From: a virus
IMG/VR virus record: IMGVR_UViG_3300046501_000677
Span: 1-34,988 of that record
DNA length: 34,988 nt
Strand: one strand, 5' to 3'
Shown: positions 1 to 19,952 of the stretch, in pieces
Layout: each line of letters starts with the position of its first letter
How positions within the stretch are numbered: position 1 is the stretch's first letter
The notes under the pieces: model-generated
The model's input: the letters and a program-made list of their open reading frames with translations, nothing else
Told to the model about the DNA's origin: nothing
The model's database searches: none
Position numbers and translations under genes: made by a program

Positions 1-1071
1 CTATCTGGTCGGTTTCACAATCTCCCCCACACGGCGGTAAACGGTCTCTGTAATCCGCCTGTCGCTATGCCCGAGCAGCCGGCTGGCGTCCGCCAAATCA
101 TCGATTTCGCTTGCCGCCTTGGGCCTAATGTCCCGGAACTGAAAGCTCCTGATGCTCCCTGCCAGTGCTGAATCCCGATTCGCCAGTGCCTTTGACACTG
201 CGGCTTCCCTAGCATCATCGAACCGGTGACGCAGCATTACCTTGGTCAGATGTCGGCCGCTCTCGGTCACGATCAGATAAGGACTGATGACGCCCCTTGC
301 CCGGTGTGCCTCCAGCAGGCGTGCAATGAGCTGACCCAACCCGTTCAAAGCCTCTCCTGCCATTAACCTGATTTTCAGTTTCTTCGAGGTTTTGCCTTGG
401 GCAACCAACAGGAAACCGTCAGTTACGTCGGCAACACGCATCCTCAGCACGTCAGATGGCCGCTGACCGGTCAAATACGCAAGATCCATAGCATCACGCA
501 GCTCTGGCACTGCCTTGGAATAGACCGCATCCCAAATCTCCGGCGTGGCATAGAAGTCCCGAGGCACTTCCTTGTTTTTACGTACTCCGGTGGCGGGGTT
601 GACCATGGCGGTCACTCCCCACTCTCGGGCCATGTTGTAAATATGAGACAGCAACGCGATTTCCCTGTTGGCCCGGACCTTGGCTGTCCTGGCGTCTCGG
701 TACTGCGCGATGGCCTGCGGCGTGATTGCCTCTATAGGTGCGTCACCAAAAGCGTTGCGCAGCTGTTTAAGAGCCAACAGGTTCTCGCGCTGCGTACTCT
801 GTTTTTTGTTCGGAATCACATCCCGTTCGTAACGATCAAATAAGTGGTTCATGTGCCTGACGATCTTCGGTACCGGCTTGCGATCCAGCTTGGCCCATTC
901 CGATTTAGCAACGTCCAGGTCAACACCCAGAGGGATTTCGAGGCGCTTGCCTGTCGATAGATCTCGGCCGTCGTAGTAGTACCCGATCCAGATCTTGCCG
1001 CTTTTCAATTTACGAACCCGCCGCAACATCCTCGGCGGCAGGTCACGGTTAACAGTCTTTCTTGGCCGCAT
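1..1071 (-). CDS. int: Phage integrase (tyrosine recombinase), 356 aa
   Basis: Site-specific recombinase that would integrate and excise the prophage between attP and attB. The C-terminal catalytic domain is readable: Arg204 in AYLTGQRPSDVL, a Lys near 227, the second Arg in FRDIRPKAAS (Arg316, where the usual HxxR reads RxxR), His335 in LLGHSDRR and the nucleophile Tyr345 in ITETVYRR. The N-terminal half (about 70-165) looks like a SAM-like core-binding domain. The ATG at 1071 lies 3 bases after the stop of the DUF4224 gene, so it is the last gene of the early minus-strand operon. The stop codon is the first three bases of the window, so the attachment site just beyond cannot be seen. The missing His of box II is common in this Pseudomonas prophage integrase group and does not suggest inactivity. 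Confidence 0.95.
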   Translation of the reverse strand: MRPRKTVNRDLPPRMLRRVRKLKSGKIWIGYYYDGRDLSTGKRLEIPLGVDLDVAKSEWAKLDRKPVPKIVRHMNHLFDRYERDVIPNKKQSTQRENLLALKQLRNAFGDAPIEAITPQAIAQYRDARTAKVRANREIALLSHIYNMAREWGVTAMVNPATGVRKNKEVPRDFYATPEIWDAVYSKAVPELRDAMDLAYLTGQRPSDVLRMRVADVTDGFLLVAQGKTSKKLKIRLMAGEALNGLGQLIARLLEAHRARGVISPYLIVTESGRHLTKVMLRHRFDDAREAAVSKALANRDSALAGSIRSFQFRDIRPKAASEIDDLADASRLLGHSDRRITETVYRRVGEIVKPTR

Positions 1072-1358: not shown

Positions 1359-1625
1359 TCAAATCATGTTCTTCATAAAGATCTGTTCCATCGCGGTGCG
1401 AGCACTCAGGGGCCGCAACCGCCGAGCGTCTACCCAAGTAGGGCGCCCCTTGCGATGGCGAATCCGCGCTCGTGATCCGTCAAACTCAAGAACGATGCCG
1501 CTCTTGATCCCCACGTAAAGGCTGCGCGGCGTCGCCCTGATGATCAGATAAACCACCGCGTCATTGACCCTGAAACCGTTTGTGGTAACGTCCCCGGTGC
1601 CGCTTGCTGGTTGTACTGCTTGCAT
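1359..1625 (-). CDS. Hypothetical phage protein, 88 aa
   Basis: A short protein I do not recognise. Its middle (DAVVYLIIRATPRSLYVGI, then VLEFDGSRARIRHRKGRPTWVD) looks beta-rich, and the basic RIRHRKGRP stretch would suit nucleic-acid contact; this is inference from composition. The ATG at 1625 has the ribosome site GGAG with 7 bases spacing. The 18 bases covering this initiation region are identical to those in front of the ATPase gene starting at 2513 (see findings). It lies in the early operon between the helicase-like genes and the DUF4224 gene. Confidence 0.65.
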   Translation of the reverse strand: MQAVQPASGTGDVTTNGFRVNDAVVYLIIRATPRSLYVGIKSGIVLEFDGSRARIRHRKGRPTWVDARRLRPLSARTAMEQIFMKNMI

Positions 1626-1647
1626 GGTGTTGCTCCTGGTAGTGGTC

Positions 1648-1697: not shown

Positions 1698-2513
1698 TCA
1701 GTACGGCGTCGTTTCAAACAGCAACATGTCCTGAATCGCTTGCCTCACCAGCAGGCGCTTCGTTGGGCTCAGGCTCAACATCAGGCACAGGCAGTCCAGC
1801 AAAGACATCAACTGGCCGTAATTCCTAGCTTGGCGCTCGCTGATTTCGTCTTCGTATTCCTCCAGCAGCTCCAGGGTGTACGAAGGCATGCCTCGGCTGA
1901 AAATCTCGAAAATCTCCTTTTCGCAGTGTTTCGCCAGGCTGGCAAAGCACCCGGCTTGCCAGCAGGTCAGTTCTGTAATTGCTTCCACGCTCTTGGAAAC
2001 GGGTTCAGATGCGTAAAACCCAACCAGTTGTACGCGCAGGAGACGGTTTTCCAGCTCGTCGATGTCTGCGGAGTTACCACTGATTACCAGCGCCCCACGG
2101 AACGGAATCCGCACAGGCAACCCTTTCGGTGGCCGAACGAGGAAGGCACCGCCGTTGTACAAGTCCGACAGTTCGCGCCAATGAAAGGAGCTGCGTCGTT
2201 CGTTACTGACCTCGTACATCAGCACGTCACGCCCAAGGCTGGCCATCACCCGCGCGCGGCTGAAACAGGGGGCACCTTCTGGCACGCAAATCGGATGGGC
2301 ATGCCCTTGCAGCTTGCTCAGATAATTCAGCAATACAGATTTGCCACTGCCTGGCCGGCCTCTGACATTGAGTAGCGGAAAGCTCCCGTACTCGCGACGT
2401 ATCCGCTGCGCATGCTGCGCGCCCAGCCACCAGGCCAGCGCGACAACGCCCTGTGCTCCATAAGCGGTCCATAAATCATCAAAGCGGATGGCGTCTCTCA
2501 GTGTGTTTTGCAT
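1698..2513 (-). CDS. ATPase paralogous to the helicase domain of the adjacent primase-helicase, 271 aa
   Basis: P-loop protein with Walker A GRPGSGKS at residues 52-59. It aligns without gaps over about 57 residues with the C-terminal half of its upstream neighbour: LWTAYGAQGVVALAWWLG here against LWTSFGAKGVVALAFWFG there, with about 31 of 57 identical by hand count. The similarity continues through FHWRELSDLYNGG / FDWDELKDFFGGG, PFRGALVISGN / PFRGTIAMSQN, and QLMSLLDCLCLM / QMMALVDCLDLV. It lacks the zinc-finger, primase and Toprim parts. Strong ribosome site (AAGGAG) before the ATG at 2513; 22 bases after the primase-helicase. Probably acts with, competes with, or regulates the replicative helicase; the exact role is unknown. 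Confidence 0.85.
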   Translation of the reverse strand: MQNTLRDAIRFDDLWTAYGAQGVVALAWWLGAQHAQRIRREYGSFPLLNVRGRPGSGKSVLLNYLSKLQGHAHPICVPEGAPCFSRARVMASLGRDVLMYEVSNERRSSFHWRELSDLYNGGAFLVRPPKGLPVRIPFRGALVISGNSADIDELENRLLRVQLVGFYASEPVSKSVEAITELTCWQAGCFASLAKHCEKEIFEIFSRGMPSYTLELLEEYEDEISERQARNYGQLMSLLDCLCLMLSLSPTKRLLVRQAIQDMLLFETTPY

Positions 2514-2535
2514 GGTGTTGCTCCTTGGTTGAAAG

Positions 2536-5259
2536 TCATGCTTGAAACAGCCAGCACTTGACCGTCATGCAACGATCAAACATCTGGTTTTTTGTGGCCT
2601 GGGCAGAGCGCACAGCACTGTCCACGGCTTTGTTGCTCTCTATGAATTTGTGGCTGCGCGACTCCTTGAGCAGGGCGCGCAGCGTCGCTACGTCCGCCAG
2701 CTTTTGTTTGTGCTCGGCGGCGCGTTCTGCAAATTCGTTGAGGTTGATGGCGATAACGTCCGGCTTTTTGCTGTGGTTGACTTGTGGGCCTTCGCCCAGG
2801 CTCTCCAGGTACTCGTAGACCTCCCAGAAATCGGCCACTAACGCGTGATCGGAACTGATCGCCGTCTGCCGCTCAAGCGCCATTCGGATCAAGGTTTGCT
2901 GAGTCAATTCCCGCTGCTGCGCATTGAGCGGGCAGACAAGATCCAGGCAATCGACTAAGGCCATCATCTGGCTGTGATTCTTGATGATTCGCTCGATGCG
3001 TATCTCTTTCAGTCCACGTAGGCGTTGCTCATGGATAAGCACTCGTTCGGCAAAACGCTCCAGTACCTTCGCTTCGGCTTTCACCGCGAGCAGTAGGAAG
3101 TGACTTATGTCCTCCACCTGCAGCAGGTTCAGGTTGTCAGCCGCTGCACGGCCCTCGTCGCTCTGTTCCGGGCGATCGAAGTGCAGTTTCACAATGCGGG
3201 TGAGAATCGCCTCAGACGCGCTGATAGCCGCGTTCTGGCTCATGGCAATCGTTCCGCGAAAGGGCGGCTCATACGTTTCGTTACCGCTGGTTTTCATGCC
3301 TTTGGTACCCAGCGTGCCGCCGCCGAAAAAATCCTTCAGCTCGTCCCAGTCGAAGCTTTTGGCGTGCAGCTTGTCCGGCTCGTTGCGGTCACCCTCGATC
3401 ATCACTACCGGCATGTTCGAGACCTGCCCCATCGCCCGTTGACGGCCGGCTCGGGTCGATTTGGTCGGGTCAAAGCCTTCGTAATCGCGCCCGAGCAGCT
3501 TCCATAGAAAGGTAAGCAATGTGGTCTTGCCGGCACCGGCTTCTCCAGTCGCTTCCAGGAAGGGGAAGGACTTGTAGCGCTTGCGGATCTGCTCGGCGAA
3601 CAACGACCCGAACCAGAACGCCAGAGCCACGACGCCCTTGGCCCCAAAGCTGGTCCATAGCATGGGCAGCCAGTCAGTACGGTTGGCTTTGCTGTCCTGC
3701 TGAATGTGAATGCCGATCGACTTCTGCAGCGTCTTCAAGCGCAGCGGCCCGAACTCGAAAAAATCCTCGGCGTTTATCTGCGTGATGATGCCGCCACGTA
3801 CAGCCAGATCCCCATAGACATAGGTCTCGTACTCTCGGCTGTAGCCAATAAAGTCGATGGTCTTGACCGTCTTGATCTTGAACAGCTGCTTTTTCAGGAT
3901 CTGATCGAGCTGGTGACCGCTGCCGGTAAACACCGCACCAGGCGCAATATGAATCAGGCGTTTCTTGAACTCGCTTGCTGCTGAAATCTGCCCGCCGGTG
4001 AAGGTGTTCTTGACGCTGCCGCCATCGTGGGGAAAGTCCACCTGAAAGTAATACCAGGCCTCGTCCGTCACCTCGTTGCGTTGGTAATACAGCGCCTGCG
4101 GAAAACACTCGGCCAGTTCTGTCACAGATACGCATTCGGCCAGGGATTTGTCCCTGCGCTGGGCGTCATTCAGGAGCTGATCTTCGTGACGGTCCGACTC
4201 CTGGAGCTGTTCGACCTTCTTACTGTGCTTTTCTGAGTCCAACTTGAACCAGTACAGCCGGTTGTCGAAATTGAAGTGAAACTGCCGGCACTCGTCCCAC
4301 TTGTAGAGCAGCAGGCCTTTCTCCTCTGCGCGCTCGGCAATCAATACCGCGCCAAGGTGCCGAGCGTGGGCTAGGTCCTTCTTGATGCGCCGCGTGCGCT
4401 CCTGCTCGTCATCAATGAACTGCCAGCGCTGATGCAGATCGTTCCAGTCCACTTTGCGGCTATCGCGCTGCGGCACCAGCGCGGCCTCGCACACATAACC
4501 CAGCTCCTGGGCCAACTTCACCCAGCGCTTGGTGTAGCGATGCGCGCCGGGTTCGTTATCCAGAGCCCACACCAGCTTCGGCAGCTTGCCGCCACGCTGG
4601 CGGGCCAGCTCTTTCAACGACTCCTCCGGAAAGGCGTTGGACGACATTGCCGAAACCGCCGCCATGTCGTAATGCACCAAAGCGATGGCGTCGAAAATAC
4701 CCTCGACGATCCACAGCTCACTGATATTCAGCAGGTCGACGCAGGGCGGGCACCACCAAACCCCACGGTAAGATTCGCCGGTTTTGAAACGCGCTTTCAT
4801 CTTGCCGAAACGCTTGGGCCGATCGATCAGCCGTTCCCAGTAGCCGCCTTTCTCCAGCGTAAAGCGCACCGTCGCGCTGCCAGCATTCAGCTCCCGAGAC
4901 CAAAACTGTTCCTGGGTAAACCAACCCTGAATCAGGTCCAGCCGAAAGCCGCGGGCGAACGCCAGATACGCCCGCGCCGTGGCGGTCGGCTCTTTGTCCG
5001 AGGACGGCGCACGCTCGCTCCAGTCCTCAAACAGATCCTCATACACCTCCTTGATATGCCAGGTTTGCCCACAACGTTGCTGACGGCCGCACCGCAGCAC
5101 CCACGGGTTCAAATCGTGGGTGTACAACTCTTTCTTGCCGCATGCCGGGCACTTGCCGCCGCGCCGGAATTTGGCGTCCGAGCTGCAACGTTTAAGTCCG
5201 TAGTCCGCTTCAAGGCGCTGCAGGATCTGCTGGCGCAGCTGTTCTTGCATCTGGTTCAC
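2536..5259 (-). CDS. Toprim primase-helicase (replication protein), 907 aa
   Basis: Large replication protein. In order: a zinc-binding segment (CPACGKK with Cys37/Cys40, then Cys57 and Cys63 in RCGRQQRCG), a Toprim-type catalytic region (IVEGIFDAIAL with Glu186, and WALDNEPG with Asp234 and Glu236), a long linker, and a helicase-like P-loop ATPase domain with GEAGAGKT at 572-579. It should prime and unwind DNA for prophage replication, taking the place that the gene A/B module has in P2. The start is GTG at 5259, with an in-frame ATG at 5250. Neither has a good ribosome site, but a short upstream ORF overlaps the GTG (next entry), which suggests translational coupling. The C-terminal domain is duplicated as the next gene. 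Confidence 0.9.
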   Translation of the reverse strand: MNQMQEQLRQQILQRLEADYGLKRCSSDAKFRRGGKCPACGKKELYTHDLNPWVLRCGRQQRCGQTWHIKEVYEDLFEDWSERAPSSDKEPTATARAYLAFARGFRLDLIQGWFTQEQFWSRELNAGSATVRFTLEKGGYWERLIDRPKRFGKMKARFKTGESYRGVWWCPPCVDLLNISELWIVEGIFDAIALVHYDMAAVSAMSSNAFPEESLKELARQRGGKLPKLVWALDNEPGAHRYTKRWVKLAQELGYVCEAALVPQRDSRKVDWNDLHQRWQFIDDEQERTRRIKKDLAHARHLGAVLIAERAEEKGLLLYKWDECRQFHFNFDNRLYWFKLDSEKHSKKVEQLQESDRHEDQLLNDAQRRDKSLAECVSVTELAECFPQALYYQRNEVTDEAWYYFQVDFPHDGGSVKNTFTGGQISAASEFKKRLIHIAPGAVFTGSGHQLDQILKKQLFKIKTVKTIDFIGYSREYETYVYGDLAVRGGIITQINAEDFFEFGPLRLKTLQKSIGIHIQQDSKANRTDWLPMLWTSFGAKGVVALAFWFGSLFAEQIRKRYKSFPFLEATGEAGAGKTTLLTFLWKLLGRDYEGFDPTKSTRAGRQRAMGQVSNMPVVMIEGDRNEPDKLHAKSFDWDELKDFFGGGTLGTKGMKTSGNETYEPPFRGTIAMSQNAAISASEAILTRIVKLHFDRPEQSDEGRAAADNLNLLQVEDISHFLLLAVKAEAKVLERFAERVLIHEQRLRGLKEIRIERIIKNHSQMMALVDCLDLVCPLNAQQRELTQQTLIRMALERQTAISSDHALVADFWEVYEYLESLGEGPQVNHSKKPDVIAINLNEFAERAAEHKQKLADVATLRALLKESRSHKFIESNKAVDSAVRSAQATKNQMFDRCMTVKCWLFQA

Positions 5260-9295: not shown

Positions 9296-9550
9296 ATGGA
9301 AGTAAAAATTCAGCAGTGGGGCAACAGTGCAGCGATCCGCCTTCCGGCGACCGTGTTGAAGCAATTGAGTCTGGTGAGTGGCGATAGCCTGACACTGGAT
9401 GTGTTGCCCGAAATGATGACGCTCAAGGCTAAAAAGGTTAAGCCTCATTACCGCCTGGCTGATCTGGTCGGCCAATGTGATCTTGAGGCCCCGGAGCCAG
9501 CCGACTTGGCAGCGTGGAACGCGATGCATCCGGTGGGCCGTGAGCTATGA
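9296..9550 (+). CDS. mazE: MazE/ChpB-type antitoxin (SpoVT-AbrB fold), 84 aa
   Basis: The N-terminal swapped-hairpin DNA-binding domain is clear: VKIQQWGNSAAIRLPATVLK, then LSLVSGDSLTLDV, the MazE/PemI/ChpBI pattern. The acidic C-terminal tail (LEAPEPADLAAWN) is the part expected to wrap the toxin. AGGAGG lies 3 bases before the ATG, so initiation is efficient. Its stop overlaps the toxin start by 4 bases (ATGA), giving coupled synthesis. The dyad over its promoter fits autoregulation by the pair. Confidence 0.88.
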   Translation: MEVKIQQWGNSAAIRLPATVLKQLSLVSGDSLTLDVLPEMMTLKAKKVKPHYRLADLVGQCDLEAPEPADLAAWNAMHPVGREL

Positions 9551-9894
9551 AGAGGGCTAAATTCAACCGTGGTGACATCGTTCGCCTTAACCTCAACCCT
9601 ACCGCAGGTCGTGAGCAACAGGGGGATTTCAGGCCAGCGCTCATCTTGACTCCAGCCGTGTTCAACTCCATGGGGCTGGCTGTTATCGTGCCCATCACTC
9701 AAGGTGGTGACTTTTCCCGCCATGCGGGCTTCGCCGTTACCTTGAGCGGATCCGGGACCGAGACGCAAGGTGTTGCGCTGACTAATCAACTGCGCAGCGT
9801 GGACCTTGAGGCGCGCGGTGCGAAGCGGATAGAGGTAGTCCCTGAGGTTGTCATTGACGACGCACTGGCGCGTGTCCAGGCGATGTTTGAATAA
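9547..9894 (+). CDS. mazF: MazF/ChpB-type endoribonuclease toxin, 115 aa
   Basis: PemK/MazF-family mRNA interferase. FNRGDIVRLNLNPTAGREQQ then GDFRPALILTPAVFN gives the conserved N-terminal strands and the catalytic-region Arg; VIVPITQGG and VALTNQLRSVDLEARG complete the fold, with the conserved QLRSVD segment. Length is normal and no inactivating change is visible. It would cleave mRNA when freed from its antitoxin, giving addiction to the prophage or abortive infection. The next gene is convergent, with a hairpin between them. Confidence 0.9.
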   Translation: MKRAKFNRGDIVRLNLNPTAGREQQGDFRPALILTPAVFNSMGLAVIVPITQGGDFSRHAGFAVTLSGSGTETQGVALTNQLRSVDLEARGAKRIEVVPEVVIDDALARVQAMFE

Positions 9895-9942: not shown

Positions 9943-11091
9943 TCAATTCAATGATGCATTGAATATACTCAAATCCACTTTAGGTCTCGGCTTATACAGG
10001 GTGGGGGTGCACAGGCCGGGCTCAAAGAGATATTTCCCTCCGGAAATACGTGTGGCAGCAATCATTTTTCCCATAGGAAGGACTGAAATAAACAGATCCT
10101 TGTTGTCAGGAAATCCGCACGCTCTCCCATCCGCATGGAACGATGTCATCACTATTATATCTTGAAGGTCTGAATCAATACTTTCTGATCTTAGATATCC
10201 TTCCCATATTGCTAGTGAGAGCGTGGCGAAAAACCCCAGTCCAATGAAAAGCGTCATTTCGTGCTTCATAACTACCTTTTTCTTTTTCTTTGGGTAAGGT
10301 GTTAGCTCATGATCCGGGTCGAGAATAAAAGATAACCTGTACGAAATATTGCTAACTGCTGGGTGGTCTCTGAACATTAGTCGTATCAGATTCAAAGTCT
10401 GCAATAAATATGCAGCTGTCCCGATCATGACTGCAACAATCCACCATCCTGTTAGAGTGAAAATGAAAGTTATTGCTTTCTGGGCTAAGGGGAAATTTTC
10501 AGCCCTTGAGTTGGTGTATGTGACTATGCTGGCATCTGAGACTATGCCTAAAACATACGTGGCCGCCAAAGTAATTATCCCTATGCTCCACTTTGTCAGT
10601 GTGTAGTGTTTCTTAATAACGGGAATTACCTTTAGCTTTAGGAGGAAGAGAATAACTGGGATTATAGTTGTAATGGCAATAAAAAACAGGCGCACGGGCC
10701 TGCTGATGCTCACGCCGGCTTGAGTAAGGGCTGTTAATACATAAATAAAGCCTACTAGGACTATGAATAATAGACTTGTTAATTCAAGTGCGTCTGACTT
10801 CTTCAGGTGGTTGTATAGTGTTATCGTTTGACTGAATAGGTATTTTGGTCTCAGAATGTTTCTGTAGTTAAAAAGCTTTTTAGGTAGCGTCCCGAATAAA
10901 AAAATGAATACTTTGGAAGGCATGGTTAAAAGTACAAATTTCGAAGCTCGCTGGATCTTGGGGGTCTTGGGTGATGCAAGCACCCCAGAGGTAGCCGGAA
11001 GTATCAGGTATATGAGGGCTAGAATTAATGCTGTGCTTGGCATGCGTAACCTTAGATTCCTTGGTTTCGAATTTCTATCGGCTGCCGGCAT
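9943..11091 (-). CDS. Multi-pass membrane protein of unknown function, 382 aa
   Basis: I recognise no family. Hydrophobic segments lie near residues 18-38, 104-124, 133-153, 168-188, 207-232 and 279-297. A weaker one near 58-68 may be a further pass. A very basic loop (PYPKKKKKVVMKHE, about 266-278) precedes the last helix. The C-terminal 85 residues are soluble, with three cysteines or fewer and a FHADGRACGFPDN motif. Base composition is clearly more AT-rich than the tail genes, as for a recently acquired gene. It follows D by 11 bases on the same strand and converges with mazF. The ribosome site is weak. Superinfection exclusion or membrane-acting defence is a reasonable guess, not a finding. 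Confidence 0.75.
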   Translation of the reverse strand: MPAADRNSKPRNLRLRMPSTALILALIYLILPATSGVLASPKTPKIQRASKFVLLTMPSKVFIFLFGTLPKKLFNYRNILRPKYLFSQTITLYNHLKKSDALELTSLLFIVLVGFIYVLTALTQAGVSISRPVRLFFIAITTIIPVILFLLKLKVIPVIKKHYTLTKWSIGIITLAATYVLGIVSDASIVTYTNSRAENFPLAQKAITFIFTLTGWWIVAVMIGTAAYLLQTLNLIRLMFRDHPAVSNISYRLSFILDPDHELTPYPKKKKKVVMKHEMTLFIGLGFFATLSLAIWEGYLRSESIDSDLQDIIVMTSFHADGRACGFPDNKDLFISVLPMGKMIAATRISGGKYLFEPGLCTPTLYKPRPKVDLSIFNASLN

Positions 11092-17649: not shown

Positions 17650-18987
17650 TTACTTAACCGAAATGGGGATGTTGATTATTTTCTCTTGTTTGAATTGCTC
17701 ACAGATGATTTTTATTTCGACTGTGCCTTGACCTTTTTTCATAGGTATGAGTATCAGTTTGTTCTCGCCGATTGAAACGTCTAATGTGTGCAGCAGGGAT
17801 TTGAGATATATCTTGATTTGATTGTCTTTATTGGTGCTGATGGATCTGTTTATATTGACGTCTGTTAAATCTGGAGGTGTAAGCAGAGAAGGGAGGCTTC
17901 GATATGTTTTTAACATCGAGGCGCTGAAAACGGCTGCCGATCCAAGCATCATATTCTGGTGTTTAATAATTGGTGAAATCGGTACAGGGGATTCAGGTGC
18001 TTCAGATCTGGCCGTATCGATGGCCTTACCTATTTTGACTAAGTCCGGGAAACTGATGGTTATATTGATGTCGCTAGCTTTGACTAGTCCGATATTCTTT
18101 ATGTTGAAAGTCAGCGACAAAGAGGATGTGGTCAATGATTTGTGAAACAACAAATCTTGAAGGTATTTTTCAAACACTTCTGTCGAGGGTAGACTTGAGT
18201 TGTATTCTTCGATCTCTCTTTCGCTAATGTGCTGCGGGAATACTCCGTGAGACATTGCTACGTGGTGCAGTGACTGTTTGCTAAAGGGCTTGGGCAGCGT
18301 TAAGTCGGTAGATGCGTCATGCTCAACTGCATCGAGGGTAATCTCCACACCTTCATTGACCTCAACAACTATATCTGGAAGCGCCTCATTCGCAAGAGAC
18401 TCATAGTAGGCAAGCTTCTGTCTCAAATCGCGATTTTCTGTACTGAGCAGTGTTAGCTCTGCCAGTATTTGCTTTGAATTATCTTCCTGGGTTCTTTTCC
18501 AGCCGAGGCGGGGCATTCTCTTAAATGTTTTGGGTAGTGCTACCGCGACTTTTGTAGCAAGATCGTCGGTTGTCCCCCAGAACTCGCACATTTTATTATT
18601 CTTGGCCTTAGCAATGAAAGCTTCAAGCCTGGCATTTATATCAGGATCACTTTCTCGCTCTGCAGCCAGTGTCGGGATATCCCGCTCACGTATGAAAGAT
18701 AGCACCGGTATGCCTTTTGCTACCGCGTAATCAAATTCTTTCTCAGTGAAACTAATTCCTTCCTCTGTGACGCTGCCGTAGCGGTGGCCAATTATCAACA
18801 AATAATAGTCACTTACGTCAATGGTTTCGGTAATGATTTCCCATTGTTCAGAATCTCCAGCGCTGAACATTTCCATTCCAATAGGGAAGTGGTGAAGATT
18901 GAGAATGGTTGCTGTGATTTTACTTCTTACAGACTCAAGGTCTCGGAAGGTTGAGCTGATGAATATTTGATACTTAGCGTCTTCCAT
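17650..18987 (-). CDS. DUF4062 domain protein, putative defence effector, 445 aa
   Basis: The N-terminal 95 residues match DUF4062: YQIFISSTFRDLESVRSKI, PIGMEMFSAGDSEQWEIITE, SDYYLLIIGHRYGS and SFTEKEFDYAVAKGIPVLSF. This fold resembles TIR/Sir2-like nucleotide-binding domains, and the conserved Glu in TEKEF sits where a catalytic Glu would be. A coiled coil follows (about 172-200), then about 240 residues I cannot assign, ending in beta-rich sequence. ATG at 18987 (GGGGA upstream) fits the domain start; an upstream ATG at 19038 is possible. Base composition is AT-rich compared with its neighbours. It has its own promoter-like sequence and lies between G and FI, where P2 carries fun(Z). Confidence 0.85.
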   Translation of the reverse strand: MEDAKYQIFISSTFRDLESVRSKITATILNLHHFPIGMEMFSAGDSEQWEIITETIDVSDYYLLIIGHRYGSVTEEGISFTEKEFDYAVAKGIPVLSFIRERDIPTLAAERESDPDINARLEAFIAKAKNNKMCEFWGTTDDLATKVAVALPKTFKRMPRLGWKRTQEDNSKQILAELTLLSTENRDLRQKLAYYESLANEALPDIVVEVNEGVEITLDAVEHDASTDLTLPKPFSKQSLHHVAMSHGVFPQHISEREIEEYNSSLPSTEVFEKYLQDLLFHKSLTTSSLSLTFNIKNIGLVKASDINITISFPDLVKIGKAIDTARSEAPESPVPISPIIKHQNMMLGSAAVFSASMLKTYRSLPSLLTPPDLTDVNINRSISTNKDNQIKIYLKSLLHTLDVSIGENKLILIPMKKGQGTVEIKIICEQFKQEKIINIPISVK

Positions 18988-19017
18988 TACATTCCCCGCT
19001 GGGATGGCTTTGTGCCT

Positions 19018-19045
19018 ATTATCTATGTAGAAGCACAAAGCGCAA
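19018..19045 (-). promoter_or_regulatory. Predicted promoter of the DUF4062 gene
   Basis: Minus strand TTGCGC (19040-19045), 16-base spacer, GATAAT (19018-19023), 31 bases before the ATG at 18987. It would allow expression from the silent prophage. Confidence 0.5.
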
Positions 19046-19100: not shown

Positions 19101-19952
19101 CTAAAGAACGCTCACAAGCTTCCCCGCAATCCACTCCGCAACTTGCGGCACAACGGCGTTTCCGCCAGCGAAAGCCTCTGCAAGGTTGGCCTCATCCAGT
19201 CCGAGGCAAAGCCCATCATTTTCAGACGCTCGCTGCCGCTCAACCATCTGATCCCATCGGTTCGGCTCAGCGACGAAAGTGGTGCAGCCCAGAGTGATTC
19301 GCCCTGGGGCGTTGTCTGCCAGCAGAGTATTGGCAGCCCATGCATCCGCGGGGCGTGGCCACTGGATCGAGCCAGACGCTGGAGATATTGCGTCCACTGG
19401 CGCGGCGTCAGCCAGCAGCTCCATGGGGGGCATTTGTCGATGACCGGCGACCAGGAATATGCGGCGACGTTGCTGGGGGACTCCGAAATATTGAGCATTA
19501 AGCACTCGCCAAAATCCCACATACCCGCAGTCCGCAAGGGCCCGGATGACTGTCTCAAAGTCTTCGCTATCGTTGACAGCGAGCAGGTTAACGACGTTCT
19601 CAAGGACCACCCAGCGAGGTTGTATTTCTTTGAGGATGCGTATGACTTCCCAGAAAAGGCCGCTGCGTTCGCCGCGTAGTCCGCGCTTGCCCTGGTTGTT
19701 ACGGTTGGCCCCGGCGATGCTGATGTCCTGGCAAGGGAATCCCCCAGTGATGACATCGACGGGCGAAAGGTTGTGAGCGCCGCATTGGCGCACGTCTTGG
19801 AGCTGCTGGGCGTGCGGAAATCGATCGGCAAGGACAGCCCGGTTAACAGGGTTGAGTTCAACTTGCCAGGCGGTGCGATAGCCTGCGTTTTCAAATCCGA
19901 CATCGAAACCTCCTATGCCTGCGAACAGGCTTCCAATGGTTGGCTGTGGCAT
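19101..19952 (-). CDS. dcm: DNA cytosine-5 methyltransferase, 283 aa
   Basis: All key C5-methyltransferase motifs are readable: motif I SLFAGIGGFDVGFENAGY (SAM binding), motif IV GGFPCQDIS with catalytic Cys74, motif VI LENV (118-120), motif VIII PQQRRRIFLVAG, and motif X GGNAVVPQVAEWI. The region between VIII and X that holds target recognition is short (about 90 residues), so the specificity cannot be read. No restriction endonuclease is adjacent. The start codon lies inside the 3' end of the com gene (40-base overlap) and has only a weak, distant ribosome site. This fits Com-dependent translation as for Mu mom. It probably methylates phage DNA against host restriction. Confidence 0.93.
   Translation of the reverse strand: MPQPTIGSLFAGIGGFDVGFENAGYRTAWQVELNPVNRAVLADRFPHAQQLQDVRQCGAHNLSPVDVITGGFPCQDISIAGANRNNQGKRGLRGERSGLFWEVIRILKEIQPRWVVLENVVNLLAVNDSEDFETVIRALADCGYVGFWRVLNAQYFGVPQQRRRIFLVAGHRQMPPMELLADAAPVDAISPASGSIQWPRPADAWAANTLLADNAPGRITLGCTTFVAEPNRWDQMVERQRASENDGLCLGLDEANLAEAFAGGNAVVPQVAEWIAGKLVSVL

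Follow-up and report, generated by a model that had tools for sequence, protein, structure and literature searches.

Introduction

AAA+ rings such as the clamp loader and ORC contain non-hydrolysing subunits that still supply arginine fingers. P2-like phages, including Pseudomonas phage Dobby and Stenotrophomonas phage Smp131 (orf39), encode Toprim primase-helicases of the PHROGs family phrog_1139. SCCmec Cch (DUF927) and SaPI Rep are MCM-like, self-loading helicases, and Cch forms hexamers (5dgk; PMC7581432). In phage P2, the exclusion genes old and tin lie in a variable region beside the replication gene A (PMC9122126). Cluster K mycobacteriophages carry start-associated sequences, which are short directional AGGAG-containing repeats found where many accessory genes, unrelated to each other, start (PMC3203893).

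We analysed a 34,988-nt virus record (IMG/VR IMGVR_UViG_3300046501_000677, positions 1–34,988, hereafter the window). It is a P2-like Pseudomonas prophage record containing tail, tape measure, sheath, terminase, Ogr/Delta and integrase families, with the host judged from its relatives. Next to its full-length primase-helicase gene lies a gene for a stand-alone AAA+ domain that shares a homologous AAA+ core and the same operon position with the phrog_1139 primase-helicases of P2-like phages, but lacks their zinc, primase and Toprim parts and their C-terminal domain, belongs to a family in which residues of a conserved, presumed DNA-contact loop are replaced, and forms its own group in trees. 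Cch and SaPI Rep provide the best structural match for the models of this domain and of the primase-helicase part; they are complete motors, whereas the stand-alone is a lone, partly motor-degenerate domain adjoining a complete helicase. Some members of its family resemble the clamp loader and ORC subunits in having lost Walker motifs and kept the arginine, although they are phage replication accessories known from sequence and a model. The surrounding region resembles the old/tin hotspot of P2 in carrying variable accessory genes just downstream of a replication gene; unlike that hotspot, it lies between primase and integrase in Pseudomonas phages. A start motif in this region is similar to the cluster K sequences in its single orientation and its occurrence at many gene starts, but differs in sequence, phage group and position. 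Our search of the open-access literature turned up no earlier case in which a truncated helicase paralogue takes part in exclusion.

Results

A lone AAA+ domain beside a complete primase-helicase

The stand-alone gene (Table 1) opens with an ATG preceded by a Shine-Dalgarno sequence (AAGGAGCAACACC-ATG), 22 nt after the stop codon of the gene for the 907-aa primase-helicase. The two proteins align by BLASTP over 268 aa with 34% identity (E=4e-34, residues 534–799 of the 907-aa protein), and by our own count 31 of the first 58 aligned residues (53%) are identical. PHROGs assigns both to phrog_1139 'DNA primase', where the stand-alone matches only profile positions 511–777 of 895 (E=2.2e-34). Searches for Toprim and zinc domains found none in the stand-alone protein; the Toprim domain is confined to the 907-aa protein and also accounts for the PADLOC DRT match of the latter. 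A sequence-only reading of this DNA had noticed the homology to the upstream protein, the identity of about half of the residues in the first aligned block and an intact Walker A without primase or zinc parts, and all three observations are borne out. Its description of the homologous part as the last third holds for the AAA+ core only, since the C-terminal ~108 residues are absent from the stand-alone, as is the zinc/Toprim part.

The AlphaFold2 model of the stand-alone protein (41-row alignment; pLDDT 89.8, pTM 0.90) confidently predicts a Cch/MCM-like AAA+ fold: the closest PDB structure is 5dgk, the Cch helicase of SCCmec (TM 0.68 by query length, E=5e-6), followed by MCMs. A model of residues 500–907 of the primase-helicase (pLDDT 86.5) matches 5dgk (E=1e-10) and SaPI5 PriRep1, and predicts a further folded C-terminal domain that is missing from the stand-alone. 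Searching solved structures by sequence with the stand-alone yielded no real relative; matches to Midasin are whole-chain scores in which no single stretch is significant. PADLOC gave no defence assignment and no convincing family (best mad8, E=0.012). The family has no Pfam model above cut-off and no NCBIfam match, and it is apparently unannotated so far.

Table 1 Features of the stand-alone gene, the primase-helicase gene and the accessory region in the window
Feature	Position	Strand	Basis
Tyrosine integrase, far side of accessory region	1..1071	−	PF00589, phrog_1
Next accessory gene, 88 aa (MQAVQPVS...), begins at second repeat	1359..1625	−	no NCBIfam match
Second exact copy of start-associated repeat, at start of next gene	1620..1637	−	exact 18-nt direct repeat
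Stand-alone AAA+ domain protein, 271 aa	1698..2513	−	intact ORF; BLASTP to 907-aa protein; purifying selection; AlphaFold2 model
Arg157, presumed arginine finger of stand-alone	2043..2045	−	position after motif C in MCM/Cch-like fold
Glu101, presumed Walker B acid of stand-alone	2211..2213	−	alignment
Walker A GRPGSGKS, residues 52–59 of stand-alone	2337..2360	−	sequence; intact
Start-associated repeat AGGAGCAACACC-ATG-CAA at stand-alone start	2508..2525	−	exact 18-nt direct repeat
Full-length Toprim primase-helicase, 907 aa, GTG start	2536..5259	−	PHROGs phrog_1139, 1224 bits; Toprim_2
AAA+ part of primase-helicase, residues 534–799, homologous to stand-alone	2863..3660	−	BLASTP
Walker A GEAGAGKT, residues 572–579 of primase-helicase	3523..3546	−	sequence; K invariant in 138 relatives

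The stand-alone family recurs beside primases of Pseudomonas prophages

Viral contigs were scanned with the primase in a first pass and the neighbourhoods translated; in the smaller part of the loci, a stand-alone follows the primase directly on its downstream side. Besides near-identical copies, these are 54% to 32% identical to the window protein. A profile built from them (A1) matched 60 viral-contig loci, of which about ten among the weakest contain full-length primases only, and 10 loci in genomes, Pseudomonas throughout. About 70 relatives of the stand-alone were recovered overall, all from Pseudomonas where a host is named; locus counts include near-duplicates, and prevalence figures come from samples. 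Absence of the pair in all relatives, which would have counted against the sequence-only reading, is not seen: the stand-alones lie nearly always immediately downstream of a full-length phrog_1139 primase-helicase on the same strand. By ORF classification of the loci, the stand-alone gene starts no more than a few tens of bases beyond the end of the primase, apart from a small number of loci (L124, L125, L127 and some with one intervening short gene).

Among 299 Pseudomonas genomes, 63 contain any family member and, by our own count, 11 contain an intact stand-alone, each adjoining a primase; one further copy (G186) is truncated, with a frame that breaks off once about 63 residues have been matched. 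Of 369 genomes sampled at class level, 7 contain a member, the sole stand-alone being that of the reference Pseudomonas genome itself. No stand-alone match was obtained in 50,697 phage records, and every candidate copy in named phages or plasmids proved to be a full-length primase. Four of 16 genomes with a stand-alone also hold a prophage with a related primase (30–75% identical) and no stand-alone; the gene thus does not bar relatives from lysogenising. Separately, a second subgroup of stand-alones has wholly lost Walker A and retains an intact ORF beside the primase (L139:8175-9011, L142:3988-4815 and L195 (G140)).

The stand-alones are not recent duplicates of their neighbours

The sequence-only reading took the stand-alone for a duplicate beside its parent, and proposed a phylogeny of both domains as a check. 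When 40 stand-alones were placed in one tree with 26 primase ATPase domains, a single branch divided the two sets (99/98; 98% of bootstrap trees). The split persists (100/99) in a tree extended with more divergent stand-alones and with outgroup primases from Escherichia, Microcystis, Halomonas, Azospirillum, Sphingomonas and other phages or plasmids, so that the stand-alones form their own group apart from all primase-helicases. In line with this, the phrog_1139 membership of the stand-alone is not reflected in a grouping with full-length members, on long branches that leave the rooting uncertain. Mean identity of the stand-alones is 29.7% to their own neighbour vs 28.7% to distant primases; because they are no closer to the one than to the other, the neighbour is not the parent. 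The tree split and the equal distance together rule out a recent duplication of the neighbouring gene. Either the split between stand-alones and primases is old, or the stand-alone branch evolves so fast that the root is obscured. Since stand-alones were found only in Pseudomonas and primases are widespread, long-branch effects are a real caveat on the rooting.

Stand-alones are selected, diverge fast and are exchanged as a unit

The stand-alones are under purifying selection. Pairwise Nei-Gojobori estimates (about 217 pairs in each set, the pairs not being independent) gave a median dN/dS of 0.17 for stand-alones vs 0.03 for the primase ATPase domains of the same phages, and values of 0.04–0.05 for the window stand-alone against its closest relatives (L001–L003). 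The earlier view that the protein is used rather than decaying stands on these values; the argument from its retained Walker A does not generalise, because intact relatives have lost the lysine.

In pairs whose primase domains are >93% identical, the identity of the stand-alones ranges from 36% to 96% and is <45% in 98 of 217 pairs. Conversely, loci L086 and L093 have stand-alones that are 85% identical and primase domains that are only 46% identical. The distance matrices of the two proteins still correlate (Mantel r 0.38), and inheritance is therefore partly joint. Breakpoints emerge when near-identical primases with and without the stand-alone gene are compared: L073 and L076 share 97% identity as far as +193, diverge over the stand-alone gene and return to collinearity at +1491/+526. 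The stand-alone is an accessory, fast-evolving gene that is exchanged as a unit.

ATP-site residues are repeatedly lost and one arginine is kept

We compared motifs in 46 stand-alone representatives with those of 138 primases, assigning the arginine finger and the loop by alignment and fold class, and counted losses on a tree built without the motif columns. All 138 primases carry the Walker A lysine, the Walker B glutamate and the sensor-1 asparagine. Among the stand-alones, the lysine is present in 40/46, the Walker B position is glutamate in 40/46 (the acid is lost in 5/46) and the asparagine is kept in 28/46, with minimum numbers of changes of 3 (lysine), 3 (acid) and 8 (asparagine). Arg157, presumed to be an arginine finger acting on the neighbouring subunit, is found in 46/46 stand-alones and at the corresponding position in 138/138 primases, with no change on the tree. 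The complete set of ATPase motifs is present in the window protein but is not conserved across the stand-alone family. The window's stand-alone may still bind and hydrolyse ATP, since it keeps all four ATPase residues.

MCM/SF3-like helicases carry a DNA-binding hairpin between Walker B and motif C. Five residues lie in this stretch (K127, N131, T133, E135 and Q146); 136–138 of the 138 primases carry them, and most or all stand-alones have another residue in their place. The replaced residues likely belong to a DNA-contact loop, and from their location we infer a lost grip on DNA.

A shared start sequence marks the accessory region

The exact repeat at the stand-alone start and at the start of the next gene comprises the ribosome-binding site and start of each. 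The consensus common to accessory genes is AGGAG[AC]A[AG]CACC-ATG-CAA. A scan with AGGAG[AC]A[AG]CACC-ATG, allowing one mismatch, in 139 loci (1.71 Mb, some near-duplicate) yielded 214 copies; every one is in coding-strand orientation and lies beyond the primase on its downstream side, with 0 on the reverse strand and 0 in 0.70 Mb upstream of the primase. The motif precedes (i) stand-alones, (ii) a 98–103-aa P-loop protein, (iii) an ~88-aa family, (iv) a DNA-methyltransferase-like family and others. It may favour exchange or serve translation alone. This shared start sequence also provides an entry point for studying the exchange of accessory genes among these prophages.

A promoter scan found no promoter-like site, the count being not clearly fewer than in shuffles, so that the scan says little. 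Given this result and the 22-nt gap, the stand-alone is probably co-expressed with the replication gene as part of its operon, which does not point to an effect in the resting lysogen.

Two further accessory proteins were observed in the region. The P-loop mini-protein (MQVHVITGDAGTGKTTKL...; L012:9758-10051 and about 28 more loci, start motif present) often occupies the slot right after the primase and has no convincing family match. A 558–728-aa protein, cytosine-5 DNA methyltransferase-like by eye, occurs in about 40 loci (e.g. L077:11516-13504). In the window, a short stretch at 1132–1240 matches the region of the excisionase gene in Pseudomonas phage F10 and relatives at 74–77% identity.

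Possible role of the stand-alone domain

We tentatively favour, at somewhat under an even chance, a non-motor AAA+ subunit that would attach to the rings of primase-helicases and dampen their activity, the target being its own or a competitor's ring. The stand-alone would be an exchangeable accessory gene product of P2-like Pseudomonas prophages, a lone Cch/MCM-like (DUF927-type) AAA+ domain that probably no longer acts as a DNA motor. It would retain a ring-forming fold and an arginine reaching into the ATP site of a neighbour, dock in or on the AAA+ ring of a same-family primase-helicase and slow or stop that ring, most likely with an effect on competing elements in the same cell or in tuning the phage's own replication. 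We infer the arginine-finger and DNA-loop roles, the mixed ring, the inhibition and the identity of the target from the patterns described above. A ring fold and arginine that are kept while the protein's own ATP-site residues are repeatedly lost fit a non-catalytic subunit in another protein's ring, and the most likely class of partner is the primase-helicase, which is always close by. The proposals of the sequence-only reading on mixed rings and jamming still fit best, chiefly because no stand-alone compared has lost the presumed arginine finger; the conserved arginine could instead be structural. The diversity of the stand-alones is not accounted for by mixed rings with the neighbour, since the stand-alones diverge and the primases beside them show high conservation. 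A gene that is accessory, diverges fast and is exchanged as a cassette suits competition more than core replication. Three points speak against a simple poison of relatives: the presumed target is conserved although the stand-alone diverges, expression probably goes with the replication operon, and four of the 16 genomes with the gene also contain a related primase whose prophage has no stand-alone.

An independent AAA+ ATPase with an unrelated accessory role and no contact with the primase-helicase, for instance a homo-oligomeric defence or host-takeover protein, is unlikely. The deep separation from the primases, the lost DNA-loop residues and the absence of a better match to the own neighbour would suit such a protein, but primase-helicase synteny was seen in essentially every case found (searches ran partly via primase neighbourhoods; the profile A1 searches and the 299-genome Pseudomonas search did not rely on them), and a self-sufficient ATPase would hardly be expected to lose Walker A, as some members have done. 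A decoy that mimics the primase-helicase ATPase domain and absorbs a defence protein of the host, or a factor from a satellite or competitor, that targets this helicase would account for the kept fold, the lost motor parts, the fast divergence and the cassette exchange. We regard it as about equally unlikely: at about 30% identity the stand-alones have diverged far from the domain to be imitated, and a matching defence was not identified in this analysis. Slightly less likely again is a helicase loader or ring remodeller that opens or loads the ring of its neighbour and on which carrier phages depend to replicate efficiently. Its position adjoining the primase-helicase, the apparent co-transcription and an AAA+ ATPase with Walker A intact in most members agree with loading; the majority of relatives with 72–75% identical primases, however, have no stand-alone, stand-alones are swapped between unrelated primases, and Walker A is lost in several lineages. 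A functionless, decaying partial duplicate of the neighbour, for which the one truncated copy speaks, is highly improbable, as the gene is intact in about 70 loci, its dN/dS is well below 1, which already contradicts decay, and it does not derive from its own neighbour.

If the dampening subunit that we favour is right, the stand-alone would be a naturally occurring inhibitor or governor of rings formed by primase-helicases, and an AAA+ protein of this kind is predicted to depend on its arginine finger more than on its own ATP-binding lysine. A broader picture, which we consider doubtful, is an exchangeable gene array marked by the start sequence and often led by a motor-degenerate helicase subunit that would poison or retune primase-helicase rings as a non-motor subunit supplying only an arginine finger. 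If true, it would represent a replication-level weapon or governor derived from a replication enzyme.

Other genes of the window

Four further observations concern the remainder of the window. Two overlapping small ORFs of 84 and 115 aa at 9296–9894 (+) are MazE/MazF-type toxin-antitoxin-like by eye. A 382-aa, apparently multi-membrane-spanning protein without a PHROGs match (9943–11091, −) adjoins a tail gene. A DNA methyltransferase (phrog_116; 19101–19952, −) is encoded among the tail genes, and a 462-aa phrog_9489 protein (17650–19038, −) lies between the tail sheath and methyltransferase genes.
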